This document shows positions 2,428 to 40,246 of a DNA stretch of 64,000 bases, in pieces. Numbering within the stretch: position 1 is the stretch's first letter; every line of letters starts with the position of its first letter. The DNA is from Pseudoroseicyclus aestuarii. GTDB taxonomy: Bacteria; Pseudomonadota; Alphaproteobacteria; Rhodobacterales; Rhodobacteraceae. The DNA lies in contig NZ_QJTE01000003.1 of NCBI RefSeq assembly GCF_003217255.1, positions 310,001-374,000 on the forward strand, read 5' to 3'. Below the pieces are notes generated by a model. It made no database searches. It was not told the origin of the DNA and saw only the letters and a list, made by a program, of their open reading frames with translations. Both the position numbers and the translations under genes were made by a program.

Positions 2428-3315
2428 ACCACGCGCAGCTACCACCCCGAGACCGGCGCCAAGCGCACCAAGCAGACGCCGACAGAGGTTGTGGAGATCG
2501 AGATCCCGCAGCTGCGGATCGTGCCGCAGGAGCTTTGGGACGCCGTGCAGGCGGAGCTGGCCCGCCGCAGCACCCGGTGCAGAGCAGCCGCCAACCCGGT
2601 CGCGGCGCGGCGCAGTCGGCATCTCTTCTCCGGCCTGCTGATCTGCGGCTGCTGCGGAAAGCCCTACGTCAAGCACAGCCGCACCAGCTTCAAATGCGGC
2701 GAAGCGCGCAAGGGCGCCTGCACCAATTACGTCGCGATCTCGCAAAAGCGGATCGAGGCCCGTGTCTTCGGTCGCCTGCGCGAGGCGTTCCTGTCGCCCG
2801 AGTCCACCGCCCGCTTCCAGGCCGCCGTCACCGCCGAGCGCGAGAAGCTCGGCGCCATCGACATCGAGGGCGAGATCACCCGGCTGGAAGGCGCGCGCGG
2901 CGAGGCTCGGTCCCGCCTCGCCGGGATCATGACCTCGATCGAGCAGGGCGCTCCCTATGCCTTGTTCAAGGCGCGGACCGAGGAACTGGACGCCGAGATC
3001 ACGGCAGTCGAGGACGGTCTCGCCAAGGCCAGGGCCCGCCTCTCCGCCCGAGATTCAGTGCAGGTCGATATCGCCCAGGTCTACGCTCGGGCCGTCGAGC
3101 GAATGGAGATGCTGCTGGGCGACCCTGACCTCGTCGAGCAAGCACGCGAGTTCCTCGCCGTGCTGATCCACCGGATCGTGCTGACTCCCGATGAAAAGGC
3201 GGCGCACGGCCTCGGGGCCGTGATCGAGGCGGACCACTGCAGCTTGCTGCCAGGCGGTGTCGGAGATGAGACCACGGCGGCGGCGGACAGGCGCATCACC
3301 AGCATTCCGTGCTGA
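2428..3315 (+). pseudogene. large serine recombinase, C-terminal remnant
   Basis: The reading frame is homologous to the C-terminal half of large serine recombinases. It has a short segment SYHPETGAKR, the linker PQLRIVPQELWDAVQAEL, then a zinc-ribbon domain (LFSGLLICGCCGKPYVKH, with a third Cys in FKCG and a fourth in GACTNY), followed by a coiled-coil region to about position 3170. The N-terminal resolvase catalytic domain with its serine nucleophile is absent: upstream sequence in this frame (2320-2430) has no homologous protein and no good start. GTG at 2491 would give 274 residues but cuts the linker. It is therefore a truncated, inactive integrase-type gene, evidence of an earlier mobile element beside the ParA end. 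Confidence 0.85.
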
Positions 3316-36855: not shown

Positions 36856-38010
36856 ATGGCGCTGAAAACGGCAACCGTCGTCGGCGGCGGCATCGGTGGG
36901 CTGACCGTGGCCCTGTGCCTCGCCCGCAGGGGCGTGGCGGTCACGCTGCTGGAGCAGGCGCCGGTCCTGCGCGAGCTTGGGGCCGGTCTTCAGATCACCC
37001 CCAACGGTGCGCGCGTGATCCAGGCGCTGGGCCTTGGCGCCGACCTCGATGCGGTCTCGGTTCAGGGGCGGGCGGTGGTGCCGGTAGACGGTCTTACGGG
37101 GCGCAGGCTGGCGCGGTTCGACCTGACCCGGCTGCCGGGCCCGCCTTATCGCATGGCCTCGCGCCGCGGCCTCGTCGCCCTGCTGGGGAAGGCCTGCGCC
37201 GAGGCCGGCGTCGCACTGCGCACCGGCGCCCGGGTGACCGAGGCGACTGACGGGGTCCTGACGCTCGAGGGTGGCGAGAGGATCGAGGACGCGCTGGTGA
37301 TCGGGGCCGACGGGCTGCACTCGATGGTCCGGCCGGCGCTGAACGAGGCCACGTCGGCGCAGTTCGCCGGGCAGGTGGCCTGGCGCGCCGTCATCCCGGC
37401 AGAGCAGGCGCCAGAGGCGCGCATCTGGATGCTGCCGCATCGCCACGCCGTCACCTACCCGATCCCCGAGGGGCTGAATATCGTCGCGGTGGAGGAACGG
37501 TCGGCCTGGGCGCCCGAGGGCTGGAGCCATGTCGACCGGCCCGACGCGATGACGCGGGCCTTCTCCGGCGCCTGCGCCGAGCTGCAAGACCTCTTGCAGC
37601 AGGTGCGAGAGCCCATGCTCTGGGGCCTGTTCCGCCATCCGGTCGCGCGGCACTGGCACGGCCAGCGCAGCGCCATCCTCGGCGATGCCGCGCATCCGAC
37701 GCTGCCCTTCCTGGCGCAGGGCGCCAACCTCGCGCTCGAGGATGCCTGGGTCCTGGCCGAGAGCGTCACGGGATCCGAGCCATTGCTGCAGGGACTGGCG
37801 CGCTATCAGGCGCGGCGCCGTGACAGGGTGGTGCGGGCGCTTGCCGCGGCGCAGGCCAATGCGCGGAACTACCATCTGTCTGGACCGGCGCGCCGGGTCG
37901 CGCATCTGGGGCTGGCGGCGATCGACCGGGTCGCGCCGCGGGCCTATCTGCGGCGGCTGGACTGGCTTTACGCATATGACGCGACCCGCGGCGAGGACCG
38001 CGGGTCGTAG
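36856..38010 (+). CDS. FAD-dependent monooxygenase (PHBH/salicylate hydroxylase family)
   Basis: 384 residues. The FAD motif is ATVVGGGIGGLTVALCLARRG (about 6-26), the DG motif LVIGADGLHSMVR (about 148-160), and the GD motif AILGDAAHPTLPFLAQGANLALEDA (about 274-298). Such enzymes hydroxylate aromatic or quinone-like substrates with NAD(P)H and oxygen. It follows dksA by 51 bases on the same strand. UbiH-like function in ubiquinone synthesis is possible, but salicylate hydroxylase-like members are nearer. The 3' end contains a 9-bp hairpin at 37983-38006. Confidence 0.88.
   Translation: MALKTATVVGGGIGGLTVALCLARRGVAVTLLEQAPVLRELGAGLQITPNGARVIQALGLGADLDAVSVQGRAVVPVDGLTGRRLARFDLTRLPGPPYRMASRRGLVALLGKACAEAGVALRTGARVTEATDGVLTLEGGERIEDALVIGADGLHSMVRPALNEATSAQFAGQVAWRAVIPAEQAPEARIWMLPHRHAVTYPIPEGLNIVAVEERSAWAPEGWSHVDRPDAMTRAFSGACAELQDLLQQVREPMLWGLFRHPVARHWHGQRSAILGDAAHPTLPFLAQGANLALEDAWVLAESVTGSEPLLQGLARYQARRRDRVVRALAAAQANARNYHLSGPARRVAHLGLAAIDRVAPRAYLRRLDWLYAYDATRGEDRGS
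37983..38006. terminator. hairpin at the convergent ends of monooxygenase and secreted protein 1
   Basis: GACCCGCGG-CGAGGA-CCGCGGGTC: perfect 9-bp stem in the last codons of the monooxygenase gene and 30 bases beyond the stop of secreted protein 1 (minus strand). No T-run. Confidence 0.55.
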
Positions 38011-38035: not shown

Positions 38036-38368
38036 CTAGAACCGCAGCCGCACCCAGCGCTCGTCCAGCACGGTGCCGGCGGCATCGGTCAGGACCGCGC
38101 GAAAGCGGCCTTTCTCGTCCGTGGGCCAGCTGACGCGCACATCGGCGTTCAGGCCGGGCTGCACCTCGGTCGCGCCGAGGACGGTGCCGTCGGCGCGAAG
38201 CACAGCGAGGGTGCCGGCCTGATCCGCGCGGACGACCGGGAATTCGACCGAATAGTTGGTGGGCCGCTCGTAGCGGAGGCCGATCGTGCTCTCGGCGCTG
38301 GCCGGGGCGGCGATGCCGCCGGCTGTGGCAAGCGCGAGGATGGCTGCGGTCAGCAGTCTGTGGGTCAT
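38036..38368 (-). CDS. small secreted protein 1 of a three-gene paralogous array
   Basis: 110 residues from ATG 38368 (GAGGAAGAC upstream). Sec signal peptide about 1-25 ending ASA-ES. The mature part is about 85 residues, without cysteine, and shares RYE-PTN-SVEFPVV, LRADGTV-GAT-V, N-DVRVSW, VLTDA-GT and RWV-L with the two upstream copies. It is roughly half identical to them. The strand-rich pattern suggests an Ig-like beta sandwich. Function unknown; secretion is predicted, location beyond the periplasm is not. Confidence 0.75.
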   Translation of the reverse strand: MTHRLLTAAILALATAGGIAAPASAESTIGLRYERPTNYSVEFPVVRADQAGTLAVLRADGTVLGATEVQPGLNADVRVSWPTDEKGRFRAVLTDAAGTVLDERWVRLRF

Positions 38369-38434
38369 GATGTCTTCCTCTTGGGGTCGGAGGGGCAGGG
38401 TATGCCCCTTTGAGAAAGGATCAAGGTCCGCTGC

Positions 38435-38465
38435 CGCCGGGGCCACCAGATCGGTTGCCCCGGCG
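38435..38465 (-). terminator. hairpin after secreted protein 2
   Basis: Arms CGCCGGGGC and GCCCCGGCG (9 bp) around a 13-base loop whose ACC/GGT can extend the stem. It lies 10 bases beyond the stop of secreted protein 2 (minus strand) and before the start of protein 1. Confidence 0.6.
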
Positions 38466-38474
38466 CTACGGCGC

Positions 38475-38816
38475 TTAGCGGTAGAGGTTGACCCAGCGCT
38501 GGGACACTTCGGTGCCCGAGGCGTCGGTCAGCACGGCGCGCAGGCGGCCGTCCTGCTGGGCCGGCCAGCTGACGCGCACGTCGGTGTTGATGCCGGCATG
38601 GACGTCGGTGGCGCCGATGACGGTGCCGTCGGCCCGCAGCACGGTGACGGTGCCGGCTTCGGCGGCATTCACGACGGGAAATTCGACCGAGAAGTTGGTC
38701 GGCTGCTCGTAACGGGCGCCGAGCGCACCTTCGGCGGTATAGGCGCTGGCGGTGGTGGCGAGACCGGCGGTGGCGGTCAGGGCGACGAGGGCGGCGGTGA
38801 GGATACGGTTGGTCAT
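38475..38816 (-). CDS. small secreted protein 2 of the paralogous array
   Basis: 113 residues. Sec signal peptide about 1-25 (MTNRILTAALVALTATAGLA), cleavage after TTASA. The mature part begins YTAEGALGARYEQPTNFSVE and ends SQRWVNLYR. It differs from copy 3 at only about five positions (A8/T8, RADG/RGDG, D/N, H/R, A/G), so the duplication is recent. Mature protein 88 residues, no cysteine, beta-rich. GGGGAGGTCCTG-type sequence lies just upstream of the start. Confidence 0.8.
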   Translation of the reverse strand: MTNRILTAALVALTATAGLATTASAYTAEGALGARYEQPTNFSVEFPVVNAAEAGTVTVLRADGTVIGATDVHAGINTDVRVSWPAQQDGRLRAVLTDASGTEVSQRWVNLYR

Positions 38817-38879
38817 GGGGAGGTCCTGTTCGATGTGCGGGACCCGACAGGGCGCCGCGGTAGCAAGGGGAGGAGGGAG

Positions 38880-38905
38880 GCGCAGCGGAGGGAGGGCCGC
38901 TGCGC
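38880..38905 (-). terminator. hairpin after secreted protein 3
   Basis: GCGCAGCGG-AGGGAGGG-CCGCTGCGC (plus strand): perfect 9-bp stem with 8-base loop, 12 bases beyond the stop of secreted protein 3 and 64 bases before the start of copy 2. It may end or attenuate transcription within the array. Confidence 0.6.
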
Positions 38906-38916
38906 CGTCGCCGCGT

Positions 38917-39258
38917 TTAGCGGTAGAGGTTGACCCAGCGCTGGGACACTTCGGTGCCCGAGGCGTCGGTCAGGACGGCGCGGAGGCGGCCATCCTGCTG
39001 GCCCGGCCAGCTGACGCGGACGTCGGTGTTGATGCCGGCGCGGACGTTGGTGGCGCCGATGACGGTGCCGTCGCCGCGCAGGACGGTGACGGTGCCGGCC
39101 TCGGCGGCGTTCACGACGGGGAACTCGACCGAGAAGTTGGTCGGCTGCTCGTAGCGGGCGCCGAGCGCGCCTTCGGCGGTGTAGGCGCTGGCGGTGGTGG
39201 CGAGACCGGCGGTGGCGGTCAGGGCGACAAGGGCGGTGGTGAGAATGCGGTTGGTCAT
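38917..39258 (-). CDS. small secreted protein 3, first gene of the paralogous array
   Basis: 113 residues from ATG 39258; a longer frame (39372) would remove the signal peptide from the N-terminus. Sec signal 1-25, mature part nearly identical to copy 2. It heads the array and its promoter region, which carries a perfect 8+8 palindrome, is the only strongly AT-rich upstream region of the three. All copies lie on the minus strand downstream of xthA, but the hairpins between them suggest separate or attenuated transcripts. Confidence 0.8.
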   Translation of the reverse strand: MTNRILTTALVALTATAGLATTASAYTAEGALGARYEQPTNFSVEFPVVNAAEAGTVTVLRGDGTVIGATNVRAGINTDVRVSWPGQQDGRLRAVLTDASGTEVSQRWVNLYR

Positions 39259-39318
39259 GTGATCAGTCTTTCGGCAGTCGTTCGTTGCGATGAGACTGAT
39301 ATAGGCAGTGGGACGACA

Positions 39319-39335
39319 AACTGAACCGTTCAGTT
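39319..39335. promoter_or_regulatory. palindromic operator AACTGAAC-C-GTTCAGTT
   Basis: Two perfect 8-bp arms with one central base, 61 bases upstream of the first array gene. In the minus-strand sense a TTGGCA lies before it and a TATATC after, so it may sit within the promoter. TetR-family repressors often bind such sites. No TetR gene is in the window. Confidence 0.65.
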
Positions 39336-39393: not shown

Positions 39394-40176
39394 CTAGAGG
39401 TCCAGATCGATCCAGAGCGGCACATGGTCCGAGGGCTTCTCGCGCGCCCGCAGCTCGCGCTCGATCCAGGCCGAAGTGAGCCTGTCTGCTGCCTGAGGCG
39501 TCAGAAGCGCGTGGTCGATGCGGATGCCGTCGTCGCGGTTGAAGGCGCCGGCCTGGTAGTCCCAGAAAGAATAATGCCCCGGACCCTGCACCCGCGCACG
39601 AAAGGCATCGGTGTAGCCGAGGGCGAGAAGTTTGCGGAAGGCGGCGCGCGTCTCGGGCCGGAAGAGCGCGTCCTCGCGCCAGGCCTCGGGGCGCTTCGCG
39701 TCCTCGGCCATCGGGATCACGTTGAAGTCGCCGGCCAGAACCGCCGGCTGCTCCTCGGCCAGCAGCGCCTCGGCCCGGGCCTGCAGCCGCGCCATCCAGG
39801 CCAGCTTGTAGTCGTACTTGGGCCCCGGCGCGGGATTGCCGTTCGGCAGGTAGAGGCAGCACAGCCGGACCGCGCCCCTGTCGCCGATCACCGTGCCCTC
39901 GATCCAGCGGGCCTGCTCGTCCTCATCGTCGCCCGGCAGGCCGCGGCTGACATCCTCCAGCGGCAGGCGCGAGAGGATCGCCACGCCGTTGAAGCCCTTC
40001 TGCCCATGCGTCTCGACCCGGTAGCCCAGGTCCTCGAAATGCTCGCGCGGAAAGCCCTCGTCCTGGCTCTTGATCTCCTGCAGCAGCGCGACGTCCGGCT
40101 TTGCCTCGGTCAGCCAGTCGGTCACGGCCTGGATCCGGGCCTTGACGCCGTTGATGTTGAATGTCGCGATCTTCAT
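39394..40176 (-). CDS. xthA: exodeoxyribonuclease III
   Basis: 260 residues. Endonuclease/exonuclease/phosphatase fold: MKIATFNINGVKARIQAVTD, LLQEIKSQDEGFP (catalytic Glu), GFNGVAILSR, LYLPNGNP, LAGDFNVIP (Asp-x-Asn) and KPSDHVPLWIDL (catalytic Asp-His). It repairs apurinic sites and oxidised 3' ends. The start ATG 40176 is fixed by the family N-terminus; a longer frame extends upstream without support. It lies just downstream of the CNNM/CorC-type gene on the same strand. Confidence 0.95.
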   Translation of the reverse strand: MKIATFNINGVKARIQAVTDWLTEAKPDVALLQEIKSQDEGFPREHFEDLGYRVETHGQKGFNGVAILSRLPLEDVSRGLPGDDEDEQARWIEGTVIGDRGAVRLCCLYLPNGNPAPGPKYDYKLAWMARLQARAEALLAEEQPAVLAGDFNVIPMAEDAKRPEAWREDALFRPETRAAFRKLLALGYTDAFRARVQGPGHYSFWDYQAGAFNRDDGIRIDHALLTPQAADRLTSAWIERELRAREKPSDHVPLWIDLDL

Positions 40177-40246
40177 GGCCCGGGCTCCCGCTGCTTCGCG
40201 GGCCTTGTAGCAGCCCGGCGCCCTGCGGCAACGGCGTAGGCGCGGG

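Follow-up and report, generated by a model that had tools for sequence, protein, structure and literature searches.

The tandem array of three short genes in Pseudoroseicyclus aestuarii encodes members of a Rhodobacteraceae family of probably Sec-exported proteins of about 110 residues, in which the mature part is predicted to be one Ig/fn3-like sandwich. Genome comparison establishes the family itself, its two conserved loci, its recurrent tandem arrays, the likeness of coding sequences set between unlike flanks, and a palindrome conserved in the promoter. The explanation we prefer, which we hold at roughly even confidence, is that the array produces a periplasmic or surface Ig-like protein that is controlled by a TetR-type repressor and amplified in copy number, with the copies kept alike by gene conversion.

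Three probably exported paralogues in tandem

The window analysed here is a stretch of 64,000 nucleotides, and all positions refer to it (Table 1). The first-pass annotation had placed three minus-strand genes for secreted-looking paralogues of about 110 residues at this site, and the open reading frames indeed encode 110, 113 and 113 residues. Signal peptides were assigned by eye; the putative AxA cleavage sites read ASA/ES.. and ASA/YT.. (slash marking the cut), and the mature parts that follow, of 85, 88 and 88 residues in copies 1, 2 and 3, contain no cysteine, as had been described. A charged N-terminus, a hydrophobic stretch and an AxA site are likewise visible by eye in most members of the short family. 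That the array is a chance run of open reading frames was considered and ruled out: because homologues and synteny are conserved, the three frames are real genes.

Below each copy is a GC-rich hairpin (z-scores of −2.4, −2.5 and −2.2), so the earlier description of a hairpin after every gene stands in that respect. All three are devoid of a U-run and a terminator scan of the array returned none, which makes any terminator role conjectural.

Table 1 Features of the array and its surroundings
Feature	Position	Strand	Remarks
Copy 1	38036..38368	-	110-aa exported-looking protein; 63% identity with copy 2
Copy 2	38475..38816	-	113-aa exported-looking protein; five residues unlike copy 3
Copy 3	38917..39258	-	113-aa exported-looking protein; promoter-proximal in the array
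GC hairpin 3′ of copy 1	37982..38007	-	Overlap with the convergent FAD-monooxygenase gene (3′ end)
GC hairpin in the copy 2/copy 1 spacer	38435..38465	-	No U-run
GC hairpin in the copy 3/copy 2 spacer	38879..38906	-	10 bp; no U-run
CTCATCGCAACG, upstream element found family-wide	39283..39294	-	11 of 12 positions match
TATATC, candidate −10 element	39298..39303	-	Visual alignment
Palindrome AACTGAACCGTTCAGTT, candidate TetR-type operator	39319..39335		77 nt upstream of copy 3 start
FAD-dependent monooxygenase (PF01494)	36856..38010	+	Convergent neighbour of the array, conserved
xth, exonuclease III (PF03372)	39394..40179	-	Upstream neighbour of the array, conserved

Predicted fold and relation to DUF7282

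In the AlphaFold2 model of copy 2, computed with 17 sequences, residues 41–111 form a six-strand Ig/fn3-like sandwich (pLDDT about 90), a prediction that bears out the β-sandwich suggested in the first-pass annotation. Its closest matches in the PDB are Ig-like domains; the best neighbour by VIA-align is the Bap BSP domain (7c7u; Z of 9.1 over 84 residues, 21% identity), with GbpA and a porphyran-binding module also among the best, where Z below 8 is background for an Ig-like fold. Ig-like folds are found in many unrelated roles. Foldseek with the predicted structure gave no match reaching E 0.001, a PDB search found nothing significant with a single sequence and a weak signal-peptide match only with a profile, and NCBIfam yielded nothing above cut-off. 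Matches to Big_6 (19.1 of 27.6 bits) and FlgD_ig (15.9 of 27 bits) are weak and lie under the Pfam cut-offs. With the Ig/fn3-like surface domains (Bap BSP, FlgD_ig, Big_6) the array protein thus shares a predicted β-sandwich and weak Pfam matches, but it is a free-standing single domain with neither anchor nor repeats.

No family had been recognised at first reading; the proteins can now be placed as short, distant relatives of DUF7282 (PF23951). The three window proteins do not match this profile up to E 10, and a central relative scores 17.1 bits against a gathering cut-off of 27 bits. Among 36 aligned members, which include three longer DUF7282-like proteins, 19 match PF23951 at E<0.01, and hhalign against the DUF7282 alignment gives probabilities of 98.2 for the short family, 96.9 for the members at locus A (see below) and 88.9 for the window copies alone. 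Common to both groups are apparent export and the core pattern GxxxGxxxVxAGxNxDVxV..AVL. The short proteins, however, end soon after the AVL strand and are missing the C-terminal YEFG...DGxPV of the 139-aa Rhodobacteraceae proteins, and they occur in tandem arrays in place of ECF-sigma neighbours. Because the window copies fall below the Pfam threshold and are without the C-terminal part, we judge from these comparisons that they are distant relatives of DUF7282 and not members. A literature search on DUF7282 and on the arrays returned no relevant paper, and the library searched contained none naming DUF7282.

Longer proteins of this type were also observed. Encoded in the trpB-pth interval of the source genome (G000:C3:450250-451174; L130:4251-5174, plus strand) is a protein of 307 aa that carries two DUF7282 domains, and genes related to it in other genera lie near rpsA, ihfB, trpF or pth-rplY. 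The DUF7282-proper genes at L080, L081, L082 and L122 adjoin putative ECF sigma/anti-sigma genes of two types.

Distribution and conserved loci

A first scan of genome contigs with a window protein as query found no match. With one relative from another genus as query, 25 of 295 Rhodobacteraceae genomes match, carrying 1–8 copies that are often in tandem; carriers in a scan with a four-row alignment include Marivivens sp., Cognatiyoonia sediminum, Alexandriicola marinus, Limimaricola pyoseonensis, Yoonia vestfoldensis and Octadecabacter algicola. A profile search reaches 67 of the 295 genomes, about two thirds of which have only longer DUF7282-type proteins, and the short form, separated from the longer one by score and frame length, is present in 22–25 of the 295. 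Among 337 genomes sampled across the class and 349 across the phylum, no match fell outside Rhodobacteraceae. Phage records and viral contigs held no relative, and the few matches on plasmids, in Ketogulonicigenium and Octadecabacter, are distant.

Mapping of copy number and neighbours, a survey that the first-pass annotation had suggested for Rhodobacterales, found recurrent tandem arrays and two conserved loci, at which most members sit. Locus A, occupied by the array described here and shared by the source genome with eight other genera, has the order dgt, erpA, array, xth, often with fmo and dksA. Locus B comprises uspA, array, nfuA and tsaB in many genera, and two further copies of the source genome are located there (C2:573.3-574.0 kb). 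Solo members lie next to recQ, inside a ribosomal protein gene cluster and near rpsA, and dapA is also a neighbour. In the tree, genes at the same locus cluster across genera (2 changes against 11.7 in shuffled data, with 0 of 500 shuffles as low), and the copies of one array are mostly grouped by genome.

Several contigs end inside short-family genes (G270 C5/C6/C8/C9, G129 C32/C36/C129, G185 C6/C11 and G334 C3). Since several arrays stop at contig ends in this way, copy numbers elsewhere are minima. The recurrent amplification across the family suits selection for dosage, and extra copies may act through such an effect.

Copy divergence and history of the array

Copies 2 and 3, said in the first-pass annotation to differ at about five of 113 residues, differ at exactly five (A8T, A62G, D71N, H73R and A86G), and at 22 of 342 nucleotides (dS 0.21, dN 0.021, dN/dS about 0.1); their third codon positions are 85% identical. 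Outside the coding region this likeness ends: over 80 nt on the upstream side and 70 nt on the downstream side, the alignments are no better than those of shuffled sequence. Copy 1, described earlier as about half identical, shares 69 of 110 residues with copy 2 (63%), or 55 of 85 in the mature part, and stands at a dS of about 0.6 from copies 2 and 3.

The first-pass annotation had read these differences as an old and a recent tandem duplication, a history that under purifying selection would need no gene conversion. Its older step holds, copy 1 being clearly the more ancient by its dS, and clean duplications with copied flanks are known in the family, at L060 and L088. The recent step is doubtful: a plain duplication of copies 2 and 3 does not sit well with flanks at the level of shuffles beside third positions that are still 85% identical. 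Nor does it fit L092, where the coding sequences are 100% identical but the flanks are not, or L086, L088 and L089 of three related uncultured species, in which upstream similarity tracks position in the array and coding similarity does not. We therefore regard plain duplication as the weaker account, with a small though appreciable chance of being correct. Because of the dS of 0.21, the dN of 0.021 and the flanks at chance, the simplest reading of the array points to gene conversion homogenising the coding region of copies 2 and 3; a duplication restricted to the coding region could also have produced flanks without similarity.

Some other arrays also look homogenised by conversion. Over 330 nt the pair in Octadecabacter algicola shows 100% identity, whereas its upstream regions agree at only 69%. 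In the Flavimaricola MAG G032 (L060:4356-6056), short genes lie 1365 bp apart on both sides of uspA and are 100% identical, flanks included, which represents either a true fresh duplication or an effect of assembly.

A conserved palindrome in the promoter

Upstream of copy 3 is AACTGAACCGTTCAGTT, a perfect 17-nt palindrome with 8-nt arms that has no second exact occurrence in the 3.44-Mb genome. No further site appears when up to two mismatches to AACTRAACNGTTYAGTT are allowed, and one other site has three; the pattern carries ~30 bits, from which about 0.003 exact sites per genome were calculated to be expected. In G147 and G163 the locus-A gene is preceded by an exact copy of the palindrome, at 88 and 91 nt respectively, and in G049 by a 15/17 site at 88 nt, so that three genera, the source genome included, have it exact and correspondingly placed. 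It is absent upstream of the locus-A genes in G042, G300, G129 and G243. The operator that the first-pass annotation had assigned to the array is thus upheld as a unique palindrome over the promoter, conserved at the same locus in other genera. A literature search on the palindrome found no relevant paper.

The candidate −10 element occurs as CCTATATCA in three of four operator-bearing locus-A promoters; a sigma-70 consensus scan found nothing and did not report TATATC. Matches to CTCATCGCAACG at 11 or more of 12 positions are present in 8 of 34 upstream regions, against 0.08 expected. Most other loci are without the palindrome and instead have a different upstream element, TTTTTCGTGAT, and regulation of the short family is accordingly not uniform. 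This element, which looks like an activator site for some regulator, lies at a near-constant 53–54 nt before CTCATCGAAACG at locus B and elsewhere (for example L050, L060, L086 and L088); as both motifs were chosen from the same sequences, the expected numbers are optimistic.

Variants of the palindrome cluster in four genera (G163, G049, G270 and G042) between a gene for an AefR-like TetR protein (TetR_N PF00440 and TetR_C_7 PF14246) and a divergent gene for a small secreted peptide. The source genome encodes an orthologue of this TetR (C2:68704-69339), 56% identical and with the same recognition helix, VSKATLYSYF. The array thus shares with AefR-like TetR operons a 17-nt palindromic site with 8-nt arms, and we infer that it is under the control of a TetR-type repressor. 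The TetR genes of the source genome and of G147, however, have no palindrome in their own upstream region, and that TetR is for this reason a candidate regulator. The divergent peptides, encoded between the TetR gene and mbfA or the place that mbfA would occupy (L163 about 2900-3110, L164, L165 and L166), form a family: they are ~60 residues long, contain two cysteines as well as an FP motif, and have 1–3 palindromes in their promoter.

Possible functions

In the mechanism we favour, an AefR-like TetR repressor would be bound at the palindrome until a signal releases it, upon which the co-directional copies would be transcribed. Extra copies would supply more of the protein, which would reside in the periplasm or at the surface and act in bulk, by binding, coating or adhesion, and not as an enzyme, while gene conversion inside the array would keep the copies alike.

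A possible alternative, to which we give about one chance in four, is a periplasmic or envelope protein that serves in the response to oxidative or iron stress. At loci A and B, erpA and nfuA, both for Fe-S carriers, are neighbours together with the genes of exonuclease III and a universal stress protein, four DUF7282-proper genes adjoin putative ECF sigma and anti-sigma genes, and the candidate TetR gene lies beside mbfA (rubrerythrin and VIT1 domains) in several genera, next to the TetR/peptide pair in three of G163, G049, G270 and G042. In Rhodobacter sphaeroides, mbfA belongs to the iron and peroxide biology that has been examined (PMC3413700). These neighbours may, however, be inherited by descent at just two independent ancestral loci, the TetR gene of the source genome is not adjacent to mbfA, and the array proteins have neither cysteine nor an obvious metal motif. 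The link to Fe-S proteins was placed among the rivals because members elsewhere adjoin genes that have no bearing on it (recQ, dapA, ribosomal protein genes or rpsA).

Slightly less probable is a carbohydrate- or surface-binding module resembling those of biofilm proteins and polysaccharide-binding domains. It draws on the structural neighbours and sub-threshold Pfam matches given above, but domains from gingipain, GH2 and complement reach similar scores in a comparison where Z below 8 is background, and the proteins carry no repeats, sorting signal or anchor. A secreted, bacteriocin-like factor of antagonism or immunity would explain why the proteins are patchily distributed (in about 8% of the Rhodobacteraceae genomes) and occur in multicopy arrays, and would agree with small size and fast divergence among genera. 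Purifying selection on copies 2 and 3, stable housekeeping neighbours, the lack of any toxin–immunity pair seen and phage records free of matches make this very improbable.

Significance

The bulk-acting, TetR-controlled protein remains our preferred reading. Three anonymous open reading frames can now be assigned to a defined family for which a fold is predicted, two ancestral loci are mapped and a regulator is proposed, along with a regulatory site that can be tested. This gives an initial way into the short DUF7282-like proteins. The array is a compact bacterial example of probable concerted evolution among adjacent protein genes, and the family explains why the assemblies of several genomes are interrupted, with near-identical copies lying at the ends of contigs. 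More tentatively, and with somewhat less confidence than in the reading above, this may be an undescribed secreted Ig-like family in gene-converted arrays that, through a TetR switch shared at locus A with a cysteine-containing secreted peptide, would take part in an envelope response of Rhodobacteraceae.
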